DNA of 48,789 nucleotides. Source: a virus. Positions 8,313 through 30,660 of the stretch are shown piece after piece. The stretch covers positions 1-48,789 of the IMG/VR virus record IMGVR_UViG_3300042323_000574, one strand, 5' to 3'. A program made the position numbers and the translations under genes. A model generated the notes under the pieces. It saw only the letters and a list, made by a program, of their open reading frames with translations, did no database searches and was not told where the DNA came from. The number at the start of each line of letters is the position of its first letter. The first letter of the stretch is position 1.

Positions 8313-9158
8313 TCAATCCAGCATCGGGCCAGACGGCAATCTCTCCATTAGCTGGCTCATATCAAGGTAGTGCTGGCGGGTTAGCTCGGGCCCACCAGAG
8401 CCACGGTGATCGAGCAGCTTGGAGCCCGCCCCCTCCTGCATCATCTCTGCGTGCGTGGCGGCTGCACGGCGCAGCCACTGTGAGCGTCCACCCTTCAGGC
8501 CAGCCATTTCGAAGTACCGCTTGATGTTGGCGAACGCCCATCGCCTACTCACTGCCCAGCTGAACACCGTGCCATCGGGTGACATGTCGGCCAACTTCTG
8601 CAATAGCTCGCTGGTTCGCGGGCTCACCCGCCTGACCACCGGCTGCCCGGTCTTCGATGCCACGAACGCCACGCCGCCGGGAACGAGTGCTTCCGCACGG
8701 AGTGAGTGTGCGTCACCCATGCGTGCCGCAGTCTCATAACAGAACCTCGTCCACGCCTCCATCCAAAGGGACACTGGACACAGGGATTTCTGAAACACAT
8801 GGTTTTCTCGGACGAAACTCTCATCTGAGAAAAACTTGACAGCCATGGTAAGATCGCTGCGAGTGAAGGCACGAACGACTTTCCTCGTCTTGCGAATCTT
8901 CTTGACTCGCCTGATGGGATTCACGATCACGCCTTCCTCGATGCCCCAGCGCCACAGGGTGAGGGCGGTGCAAAGCTCGGATGCTTTGGTGGTTGAACTG
9001 GTTGTCAAGGAGGAGAGCCACATGTTCACGACAGGCCCATCGATGTTCGCCGCGGTGATTCCCGCCGCCGCCATCTTGCGTGCCGTTCGTCGGACGTTGC
9101 TTGCGTAACCAGAGCTAACGTCTCGACCCAAAAGAAACCCTTCAGCGACCCCTATCAT
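8313..9158 (-). CDS. int: Tyrosine recombinase (phage integrase)
   Basis: Site-specific recombinase expected to integrate the phage at a host tRNA gene. The C-terminal catalytic domain is clear: an A-R-M-G-D segment carrying the first Arg, a beta-strand Lys (S-K-T-G), then R230 in W-L-R-R-A, H251 in L-D-H-R-G and nucleophile Y264 in Q-H-Y-L-D. The usual HxxR histidine is Gln here (Q-W-L-R). The N-terminal region looks like a SAM-like core-binding domain. The reading frame extends upstream to 9359, but the ATG at 9158 has AAGGAG at good spacing and begins a typical integrase N-terminus, so I prefer it (281 aa). It points away from the adjacent partial tRNA-Pro attachment site at 9373, the usual int-attP arrangement. 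Confidence 0.9.
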   Translation of the reverse strand: MIGVAEGFLLGRDVSSGYASNVRRTARKMAAAGITAANIDGPVVNMWLSSLTTSSTTKASELCTALTLWRWGIEEGVIVNPIRRVKKIRKTRKVVRAFTRSDLTMAVKFFSDESFVRENHVFQKSLCPVSLWMEAWTRFCYETAARMGDAHSLRAEALVPGGVAFVASKTGQPVVRRVSPRTSELLQKLADMSPDGTVFSWAVSRRWAFANIKRYFEMAGLKGGRSQWLRRAAATHAEMMQEGAGSKLLDHRGSGGPELTRQHYLDMSQLMERLPSGPMLD

Positions 9159-9300
9159 CGATCCGCTCCTTACTGTACAACCGTCCACAACATCCTTGCC
9201 AGTGGTGGAGAGAGTACTCACTGCGAAGGAACCAACAACCCCCCGGTTTCCCCCTTTCAAGGGGCCGCTTCCACTGTCTGAGGAATTCAAGGAATTCAGA
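9159..9300. promoter_or_regulatory. int/early intergenic control region
   Basis: This stretch separates divergent integrase and early genes. It holds a palindrome CCCCTTTCAAGGGG (9251-9264) and a tandem 9-bp repeat AGGAATTCA (9281-9289 and 9290-9298), the second copy overlapping a Shine-Dalgarno-like AAGGA before the ATG at 9301. Promoters for both directions are expected here, and the repeat and palindrome could be integrase arm sites or operators. No convincing -35/-10 pair was identified. Confidence 0.4.
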
Positions 9301-10293
9301 ATGTCGTCACAATCATCGCCGTCGAAGAATGACGTTGCGGAAATCGAGCAGGAAGCCATAATGCACCCAGATCGGGGCGTAGCTCAGTCTGGTAGAGCGC
9401 TACGTTCGGGACGTAGCGCACTCGCAGAAGAGATAGCCGCGCTTTCTTTTGGTTACCCGCTCGTCCTGAGAGGGTTGCCTAACGACCAGTACCATAGTCT
9501 TCCGGTGCCGTCGAAGAGCCCCCTGTGGGCTTTTCGCAGACACGGCCCGGTGTGGTACTACGAGCAGTTCGTTGCTCGCTCCCATCCTCCGTTCGCGTCG
9601 GACTCCCTCGCAAGAGGGACGCTTGTCCACCTAGTCTTCGAACTAGGCGAGCCTGAATTCCGCCGTCGGGCAGTGCTCGTTCCCGAGAAGTTCTGCACCG
9701 CCACCGGGACACTTAGCTCAGGTAAGGAAGCACGGGCGTGGCTGGCCGACCAGCCCAAGGACGCCATCCTCCTGACCCCGGCAGACGACGCCGTGATCAC
9801 CGGCCTGTGGAAGCAGGCTCAGGACAACGCCGCTGTCCGCGAGATCATCGAGTCCATTGAGGAGCACGAACTCTCGGTGGTATGGGAGCGGGAGGACGGC
9901 CACCGTCTCCGCTGCCGGTTCGATGCTGTCACCCGTGATGGCAGGCTGATCGATTGGAAGACGAGCCGCGAGGCTCGCCCTCTGGAGTCGTGGATCGGGC
10001 CAGCGATAGAGCACGGCTACCACTACCAAGCCGCCCTCTACGGCAGCGGTGCAATCGAGGCTGGCATCTCCGACCGGCCGATGACGTTCATCGTCCTCTC
10101 GACTACCCCCAGCTATCAGGTGCAGGCCGTCACTCTCCCGGCCCCTGTCGTGGACATGTGCCACGACATGATCACACGCGACCTCGATGAGATCGCCATC
10201 CGCACCGAGACAGACAACTGGCTCCCCGCCGGATACGGGGAAGTCCACGAGTTGGCTGTGCCCGATTACCTGCTGCGGAGGTTCCACTCATGA
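9301..10293 (+). CDS. PD-(D/E)XK exonuclease (RecE/lambda-exo-like)
   Basis: Likely 5'-3' double-strand DNA exonuclease that makes single strands for the Erf annealing protein two genes downstream. With the 9301 start (330 aa), D208 in C-R-F-D-A-V and D218-W-K220 form the D...D-x-K nuclease signature, followed by an H-Y-Q-A-A helix typical of RecB/Cas4/RecE-type nucleases. Start choice is uncertain: ATG 9301 (AAGGA upstream), ATG 9361 (AGGAAG upstream) or TTG 9196. All place the partial tRNA-Pro (9373-9417) inside the reading frame, so about 15 N-terminal residues are translated tRNA sequence. After integration the upstream starts would be replaced by host DNA. The stop overlaps the next ATG (ATGA). 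Confidence 0.82.
   Translation: MSSQSSPSKNDVAEIEQEAIMHPDRGVAQSGRALRSGRSALAEEIAALSFGYPLVLRGLPNDQYHSLPVPSKSPLWAFRRHGPVWYYEQFVARSHPPFASDSLARGTLVHLVFELGEPEFRRRAVLVPEKFCTATGTLSSGKEARAWLADQPKDAILLTPADDAVITGLWKQAQDNAAVREIIESIEEHELSVVWEREDGHRLRCRFDAVTRDGRLIDWKTSREARPLESWIGPAIEHGYHYQAALYGSGAIEAGISDRPMTFIVLSTTPSYQVQAVTLPAPVVDMCHDMITRDLDEIAIRTETDNWLPAGYGEVHELAVPDYLLRRFHS
9373..9417 (+). other. attP: Probable attP core: 5' half of a tRNA-Pro gene
   Basis: The sequence reads as a tRNA 5' half: acceptor CGGGGCG (9373-9379), TA, D-stem GCTC (9382-9385), D-loop with GG, GAGC (9395-9398), G, then a perfect anticodon arm CTACG-TTCGGGA-CGTAG (9400-9416) with anticodon CGG (proline). After the anticodon stem the sequence departs from any T-arm and no acceptor 3' strand follows. 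A truncated tRNA beside an integrase gene is the standard sign of an attachment core. Unusually, the phage carries the 5' half rather than the 3' half. Confidence 0.8.
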
Positions 10294-10823
10294 TCGGAAG
10301 GCTCAATCGTCAGGGTCGCATCAACCCGGTGTTCTTCGTGGACGAGCAGTTCGCGGAGGAAGTGTCCAAGCACAGCTGGTGCAGACACGCCAAGGGCTAT
10401 CTCCAGACCCGCATCAACGACCGCATGGTGCTGCTGCACCGATTCATCTGGGCTCTCGTCCACGAGAACTCAGCTGCCCAGCTGGATCACATCAACGGCG
10501 TGAAGTGGGACTGCCGCCTCACCAACCTTCGCCCGGCCACGGGCTCGTTGAACATCCGCAATCGCAACAGCAGGCGTCGTCTAGCCGACCGTGCTCACTT
10601 GCCCGCGGGCGTCGAGGACATGCGTCTCTACGACAGCATCGAGCGAGACAAGCCGTACCGGGTGGTCATCAACGTGCATGGCCGTCGGAAGTATCTCGGG
10701 TACTTCGCGACCGCCGAGGAGGCAGGCGCTGCCTACCAGCAGGCGAAGGCGTCCGAGATGGCACAGGAAGAGACACGTTCGTGGGAGTTGTTTCACCAGC
10801 AGAAGGAGAGCGTCAATGGCTGA
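10290..10823 (+). CDS. HNH homing endonuclease with AP2 domain
   Basis: Free-standing homing-type endonuclease, 177 aa. The HNH core runs from about residue 50 (H50 in L-L-H-R-F) through D66-H67-I-N to N79-L-R-P-A, followed by N-I-R-N-R. The C-terminal part (about 118-152) is an AP2 DNA-binding domain with Y-R-V-V-I and the Y-L-G-Y-F-A-T-A-E-E-A strand-helix pattern. The start overlaps the exonuclease stop by four bases. It sits between the exonuclease and the annealing protein and looks like an insertion into that pair. It is a paralogue of the gene at 28744. Confidence 0.9.
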   Translation: MIGRLNRQGRINPVFFVDEQFAEEVSKHSWCRHAKGYLQTRINDRMVLLHRFIWALVHENSAAQLDHINGVKWDCRLTNLRPATGSLNIRNRNSRRRLADRAHLPAGVEDMRLYDSIERDKPYRVVINVHGRRKYLGYFATAEEAGAAYQQAKASEMAQEETRSWELFHQQKESVNG

Positions 10824-11487
10824 TCAAGAAGTTCTCGATATCGTCCCCGTCCAACCAATCCGCGACCCGCGTCTCAAGGGGCAGACCTCCATGCTCCCGG
10901 CAGCAGAGAGCGAGTTCACCGACCTGCTGTGTGCTGCGAAGTGCAAGGCCCGGCCGGAGATCAAGAAGATTCACAAGAACGCCAAGGGGAACTTTGGCCC
11001 CTACGCCACGCTTGACGAGGTGATCGATGCGGTGTGTGAGTCGCTGCCCAAGTACGGGCTCGACCTCTCATCGAAGACCATCATCATCGGGGATCAGGAA
11101 TGGCTCGTCTCCACTCTGCGTCACGTCAGCGGTCAGTTCGAACGCTCGTTCAGTGTGCTGAACTACAACCGCTCCAAGCCGCAGGACAAGCTGGCGTGGA
11201 CGACGTACTTCCGCCGCAACGACTACGCCTGCCTCTGCGGGATCGCGGCTGAGAGCGACCTCGACGGTGCCAACCTGAAGAGCGCCGCCCCTCCCGCCGT
11301 GAACCCGGTGGTGGGCATGGCACGTCAGGCACTGCGTAACGCACGCACCGAGCAGGATCGCAACACCGTGCTCGCTAAGGCTGCCCTCTCAGTTGCAGCT
11401 GGCCGGATGAGTGAGGAGCAGATGCTCTCGCTGAAGGAGGAGCGGGAAGCCATGGCCCCGATAGCGGAGGTGAAGCGTGCTGAGTGA
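10816..11487 (+). CDS. erf: Erf-family single-strand annealing protein
   Basis: 223 aa. The segment F-G-P-Y-A-T-L-D-E-V-I-D-A-V (about residues 55-68), then L-P-K-Y-G-L-D-L and a W-L-V-S-T-L-R-H-V strand, matches the ERF superfamily of recombination mediators. These bind and anneal single-stranded DNA during phage recombination and genome circularisation. It would partner the exonuclease upstream and the SSB at 29505. The ATG at 10816 has AAGGAG seven bases upstream and overlaps the HNH stop, so the longer upstream open frame is not needed. Confidence 0.85.
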   Translation: MADQEVLDIVPVQPIRDPRLKGQTSMLPAAESEFTDLLCAAKCKARPEIKKIHKNAKGNFGPYATLDEVIDAVCESLPKYGLDLSSKTIIIGDQEWLVSTLRHVSGQFERSFSVLNYNRSKPQDKLAWTTYFRRNDYACLCGIAAESDLDGANLKSAAPPAVNPVVGMARQALRNARTEQDRNTVLAKAALSVAAGRMSEEQMLSLKEEREAMAPIAEVKRAE

Positions 11488-30587: not shown

Positions 30588-30660
30588 TGAGGGGTGGTGT
30601 AGGTGGTGCAGCACATTGGCAGGAACGCCAAAGGCCCGCGTTCGAGTCGCGGCCTCTCAA
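30588..30660 (+). tRNA. Degenerate tRNA-like sequence
   Basis: Acceptor TGAGGGG (30588-30594) pairs with CCTCTCA (30653-30659, one G-T pair). D-arm GTGT / GCAC has a GG-containing loop. The T-arm CCGCG-TTCGAGT-CGCGG (30636-30652) is canonical. The anticodon arm TTGGC-AGGAAC-GCCAA has a 6-base loop without U33, so it cannot act as a normal tRNA. CCA is not encoded. It could be a decayed tRNA or a structural mimic. Confidence 0.5.

Follow-up and report, generated by a model that had tools for sequence, protein, structure and literature searches.

Phages that integrate into tRNA genes usually carry the 3′ half of their target, an arrangement that lets the host tRNA retain its own promoter, and this is the usual explanation for the dominance of 3′ halves. 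The locus described here raises the question of what a phage has to add when it carries the other half. It lies in the genome of an uncultured phage (IMG/VR record IMGVR_UViG_3300042323_000574, positions 1–48,789; the whole of this 48,789-nt stretch is referred to as the window), in which a sequence-only reading had placed the 5′ half of a tRNA-Pro, as an attachment site, inside the frame of an exonuclease gene. The premise of that reading, that 3′ halves are the rule and 5′ halves the exception, agrees with the Islander collection, where 3760 of 3919 islands have 3′ tDNA fragments and 159 have 5′ fragments (PMC4383910). The reading that we favour, at a probability of about 0.82, is that the phage attachment site (attP) is recombined within the anticodon loop of a host tRNA-Pro gene, that its 5′ half derives by reversal from a 3′ half, and that integration would rebuild the tRNA from the phage side whilst cutting the exonuclease gene off from its start.

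A fuller version of the window genome (IMGVR 3300044643_000906, here G003) is colinear with it at ~99.5% identity and has a 127-bp end repeat, which suggests a circular map of ~61.6 kb. The attachment site is internal and intact in G003, and it therefore represents the free form (attP) and not an integration junction. The features of the locus are collected in Table 1.

Table 1. Features of the integrase/exonuclease locus, in window coordinates.
Feature	Position	Strand	Remarks
Tyrosine integrase, 281 aa	8313..9158	-	Divergent from exonuclease; PHROG integrase E 2.5e-13
Integrase/exonuclease intergenic region	9159..9300	.	Alignment and motif check against 3′-half sisters
Exonuclease VIII/RecE-like gene, 330 aa	9301..10293	+	phrog_412 E 2e-38; PF12684/PF12705; holds attP in frame
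Candidate promoter for rebuilt tRNA	9335..9362	+	TTGCGG 9335-9340, 16 nt, CATAAT 9357-9362
attP core = tRNA-Pro(CGG) 5′ half, tRNA bases 1-44	9373..9416	+	Exact match to a complete tRNA-Pro gene
8-bp inverted repeat GCGCTACG / CGTAGCGC flanking 7-bp loop	9397..9419	.	Sequence, inverted-repeat search; probable core-type integrase sites
Minimal shared core CTACG-TTCGGGA-CGTAG, anticodon stem-loop	9400..9416	+	Long block invariant in 5′- and 3′-half carriers
Predicted 7-bp crossover	9405-9411		Within anticodon loop
Erf-like ssDNA-annealing protein	10591..11487	+	phrog_2324 E 2e-19; downstream of exonuclease, presumably in one early operon with it

The tRNA-Pro 5′ half and its independent copy

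The segment at issue reads CGGGGCGTAGCTCAGTCTGGTAGAGCGCTACGTTCGGGACGTAG and matches tRNA-Pro(CGG) at 44 of 44 nucleotides, from the first base of the tRNA through to the end of the anticodon stem. The sequence-only reading had ended it at 9417; the 5′ half is real, but its end is one base earlier, because 9417 is a C where the tRNA has an A. Comparison with a CGG-anticodon tRNA-Pro gene had been proposed as a check, and in a 257-Gb genome collection the 44-mer was indeed found exactly once, within a complete tRNA-Pro(CGG) gene (L002, 6701–6777, minus strand) of an alphaproteobacterial metagenome-assembled genome that is perhaps not the host; by chance, about 1e-15 exact matches would be expected in that collection. 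The Rfam tRNA model scores 28.9 bits (gathering score 29, E 4e-4) from 9373 as tRNA position 1, the fit lying in the 5′ part, and ARAGORN called no tRNA at 9373–9416 because the 3′ half is absent. The core lies 214 bp upstream of the divergent integrase gene and occupies codons 25–39 of the exonuclease gene, in frame, as had been claimed.

The same arrangement is present in an independent phage, L003 (IMGVR 3300034200_000772), whose integrase is 63% and exonuclease 70% identical to those of the window. Its core agrees with that of the window at all 44 nt and at the two preceding bases, and the flanks have diverged. All 14 whole codons of the core are identical between the two phages; elsewhere in the exonuclease gene this holds for 140 of 207 codons that could differ synonymously (Fisher p 0.007).

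Relatives with 3′ halves and the proposed reversal

Four further phages with the divergent integrase/exonuclease module were reached through terminase neighbours, and an integrase profile then extended the set to 80 loci. In phages L133–L137 this place in the exonuclease frame is taken by the 3′ half of the same tRNA-Pro(CGG) (for example CTACGTTCGGGACGTAGAGGTCGCTGGTTCGAATCCAGTCGCCCCGA in L137), and their integrases are 54–57% identical to that of the window, those of L133 and L134 being identical to each other. In more distant relatives the 3′ half comes from tRNA-Met(CAT), from tRNA-His(GTG) or from an anticodon-GAC tRNA that is read as tRNA-Val. Among the att-bearing relatives, 5′ halves are found only in the window lineage (window and G003) and in L003. 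No tRNA fragment was recognised in L143, L155, L203 or L209, in which the divergent exonuclease is present, and a whole-looking tRNA-His before the exonuclease of L234 was rejected as a prophage junction, the integrase lying directly upstream. Separately, L146, L149, L161 and L174 have no obvious exonuclease frame upstream of the integrase and seemingly represent another gene context.

When six tRNA-Pro phages were aligned, the sole long block to be invariant was CTACG-TTCGGGA-CGTAG, in which inverted arms of 5 bases enclose a 7-base loop, as would be expected for a crossover in the anticodon loop. The phages with the 5′ half have extra sequence to the left of this block, which holds a new exonuclease start, a promoter-like motif and the tRNA 5′ half, and both the window and L003 have lost the ancestral exonuclease ATG and the −35 (TTGAC) common to the 3′-half phages. 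A tree of the integrases places the two 5′ carriers together (98/95) within the tRNA-Pro clade, and L136 falls outside at 99/91; an AU test did not reject a single clade of 3′-half tRNA-Pro phages (p 0.10), and that the 5′ carriers are nested is therefore a weaker statement than that there was one reversal. Position, frame, identity, conservation and phylogenetic pattern of the core are all matters of direct observation, and the 5′ state is best read as the outcome of one reversal, since a single change of state suffices. The ancestral state would be the one still seen in the sister phages, a 3′ half within the exonuclease frame; we infer that in the lineage of the window and L003 the segment to the left of the loop was then replaced by tRNA 5′-half sequence and that the 3′ half decayed. 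To the right of the loop L003 reads AGAGGTCGCT, with 10 bases matching the 3′ half of L137, and this could be a remnant of the lost half.

In the 3′-half sisters L133–L137, the exonuclease promoter (TTGAC-N-17-TACACT) is strong and lies in the region between integrase and exonuclease. Since it overlaps the region of the integrase start codon, there may be competition between the divergent genes, or joint regulation of them.

Predicted rebuilding of the tRNA and the candidate promoter

The integrase of this presumably temperate phage is proposed to recombine in the anticodon loop of a host tRNA-Pro(CGG) gene, with 9373–9416 as the attP core. On the integrase side, integration would fuse the phage 5′ half to the 3′ half of the host gene, such that the tRNA would be rebuilt behind phage DNA, and the host promoter and host 5′ half would be left facing the truncated exonuclease and the early genes. 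The event itself, the base of the crossover, the activity of the promoter and the effect on exonuclease expression are predictions made from sequence. An in-silico exchange with a stand-in tRNA-Pro gene, joined at the loop, yielded, for the window, a whole tRNA-Pro at the integrase-side junction alone; for L133–L137 the whole tRNA-Pro lay at the exonuclease-side junction (an extra short call in L135 is spurious, and a 92-nt tRNA-Pro called by ARAGORN in L003 was rejected as an artefact in which the 5′ half is fused to unrelated sequence). The phage of the window would therefore have to put phage DNA in front of the host tRNA, and the earlier claim that phage DNA has to supply the promoter of the rebuilt tRNA holds on the sequence, with the same arrangement in L003.

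Transcription of the rebuilt tRNA would probably start from TTGCGG-16-CATAAT, embedded in the exonuclease codons. CATAAT ends 10 nt before the tRNA, the same motif is found at the same place in L003, and a −10 element of 5/6 at the right place occurs at 0.27% of window positions; the evidence for a promoter here is suggestive. A competing explanation accepts the attachment site and holds the phage promoter to be irrelevant: tRNA-Pro(CGG) would be dispensable, given that the UGG isoacceptor reads CCG, and would be lost or weakly read through in the lysogen. CGG tRNAs are generally dispensable where a UGG isoacceptor exists, and the motif is weak, with 8 of 12 matches; about a third of the synonymous shuffles score as high (the shuffle test alone is non-supporting), and a consensus promoter/terminator scan reported nothing. 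However, where the segment has otherwise diverged between the window and L003, the longest stretches to be conserved are those with the −35- and −10-like blocks (clustering p about 0.03), and the whole 5′ half is exact in both phages, which would be needless were the tRNA expendable; we regard this explanation as rather unlikely, whilst taking it to be the strongest of the rival accounts. A third match to the promoter-like pattern, in L040, was rejected as belonging to an unrelated phage.

The exonuclease frame around attP

As the crossover would lie past the point at which the exonuclease gene starts, a prophage would carry that gene cut off from its start and upstream region, which excision would restore. 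In each of the 21 att-bearing loci, a few of which are near-duplicates (L133/L134 and L148/L151), the exonuclease frame is open across the anticodon loop and has an ATG in frame upstream of it. The tRNA-Pro core is translated as LRSGRRGR in some phages and as YVRDVEV in others; as it is read in different frames, it is the DNA that is constrained, with the exonuclease frame kept open around the core. It is possible, and we put it forward tentatively, that throughout the group attP sits in the 5′ coding part of the exonuclease so that integration disconnects the recombination operon and excision reconnects it, and that in addition one lineage swapped its tRNA half, with the result that its outward-facing phage DNA now acts as the promoter of a host tRNA.

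The exonuclease body might instead be started downstream of the core, in which case integration would leave it intact and the N-terminal frame would be incidental. There is an in-frame TTG at window position 9475, and an ATG, GTG or TTG is found in the same interval of L133–L137; yet 11 of the 21 loci have none of these codons between the core and the conserved nuclease domain, the frame is open to an upstream ATG in every locus although the cores read in different frames, and several of these ATGs have good Shine–Dalgarno (SD) sequences. An internal start of this kind is accordingly improbable, and loss of the exonuclease start on integration is the reading that we retain.

Search for integrated copies and for the host

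Neither an integrated copy nor a relative of the integrase turned up among 398 Pseudomonadota genomes or in the order to which the L002 genome belongs, and phage and plasmid collections yielded no integrated copy either. The lack of an integrated copy would also fit a captured tRNA fragment with some other role (decoy, regulatory RNA or remnant) and a real attP elsewhere, but such a reading is very improbable, as the segment adjoins the integrase, shares its 17-bp core with other tRNA-Pro phages, has other tRNA halves as counterparts at the same place in relatives, and ends where the crossover symmetry of anticodon-loop integrases would have it end. The L002 genome, the sole source of an exact tRNA match, is without this integrase. 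The 3′ halves of the relatives end at the discriminator base without CCA, whereas CCA is encoded in the L002 gene, as it is in other proteobacterial tRNA genes. A bacterium whose tRNA genes lack CCA may accordingly be the true host, and the match in L002 may be coincidental, the tRNA being a conserved one.

Comparison with known systems

The site resembles the Islander 5′ tDNA islands in that attP is the 5′ part of a tRNA gene and element DNA comes to lie upstream of the rebuilt gene (PMC4383910); among these islands, no 3′-to-5′ change on one tRNA inside a single phage clade was found described. Archaeal pTN3-like integrases also target a tRNA gene by its 5′ half, and expression of the rebuilt tRNA is there attributed to the promoter of the integrase (PMC8371274, PMC5495485); a review describes 5′-half use as seldom seen in bacteria, citing Williams 2002 (PMC8371274). 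The likeness to pTN3 is one of site architecture, with a tRNA 5′ half as attB, a core of about 41 bp, a tRNA parted from its promoter and a split coding gene, but in pTN3 the integrase gene itself is split (suicidal), whilst here it would be the exonuclease gene of a bacterial phage. In mycobacteriophage BPs, attP lies inside the repressor gene and immunity is integration-dependent (PMC4557955). The present site is similarly placed within a phage gene whose product integration would alter; however, in BPs the 3′ part of the repressor gene holds attP and here the 5′ part of the exonuclease gene does, where a regulatory role is only possible. A further parallel is tRNA-dependent lysogeny, in which the phage supplies a whole tRNA (PMC10865867): in both cases it would fall to the phage to keep a host tRNA functional after integration, but in that system the host copy is destroyed and the whole phage-encoded tRNA takes its place, and here the tRNA is predicted to be rebuilt across the junction.

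Thus 5′-half sites are rare but already known. Within the part of the literature covered, no description was found of an attP in an exonuclease gene, of a 3′-to-5′ reversal on one tRNA, or of such a reversal with attP fixed in the exonuclease frame. Two sister lineages that use the same tRNA and crossover with opposite halves offer a clean natural comparison for the choice of half and for what a phage must add on switching, namely a promoter and a new gene start. That attP lies within the exonuclease frame throughout suggests a possible role of integration as a switch for lytic recombination genes.

The integrase and neighbouring genes

The integrase ATG at 9158 is preceded by an AAGGAG SD. 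Its match to Pfam PF00589 (E 0.001) is under the curated cut-off, and the R, K, H and Y positions are conserved in a six-sequence integrase alignment. The usual tyrosine recombinase form is H-x-L-R; at this place the family has (Q/R/K/P)-W-(L/F)-R-R, and the box II histidine is seemingly absent. A direct-repeat search gave no convincing arm-type sites.

Elsewhere in the window, ARAGORN called a tRNA with a two-base anticodon (ga) at 30588–30660, which is also present in G003 and is probably spurious. Between the exonuclease and Erf-like genes lies an HNH endonuclease gene (window 10290–10823), which looks like a recent insertion because the next open reading frame of L003 begins directly at the exonuclease stop (5564).
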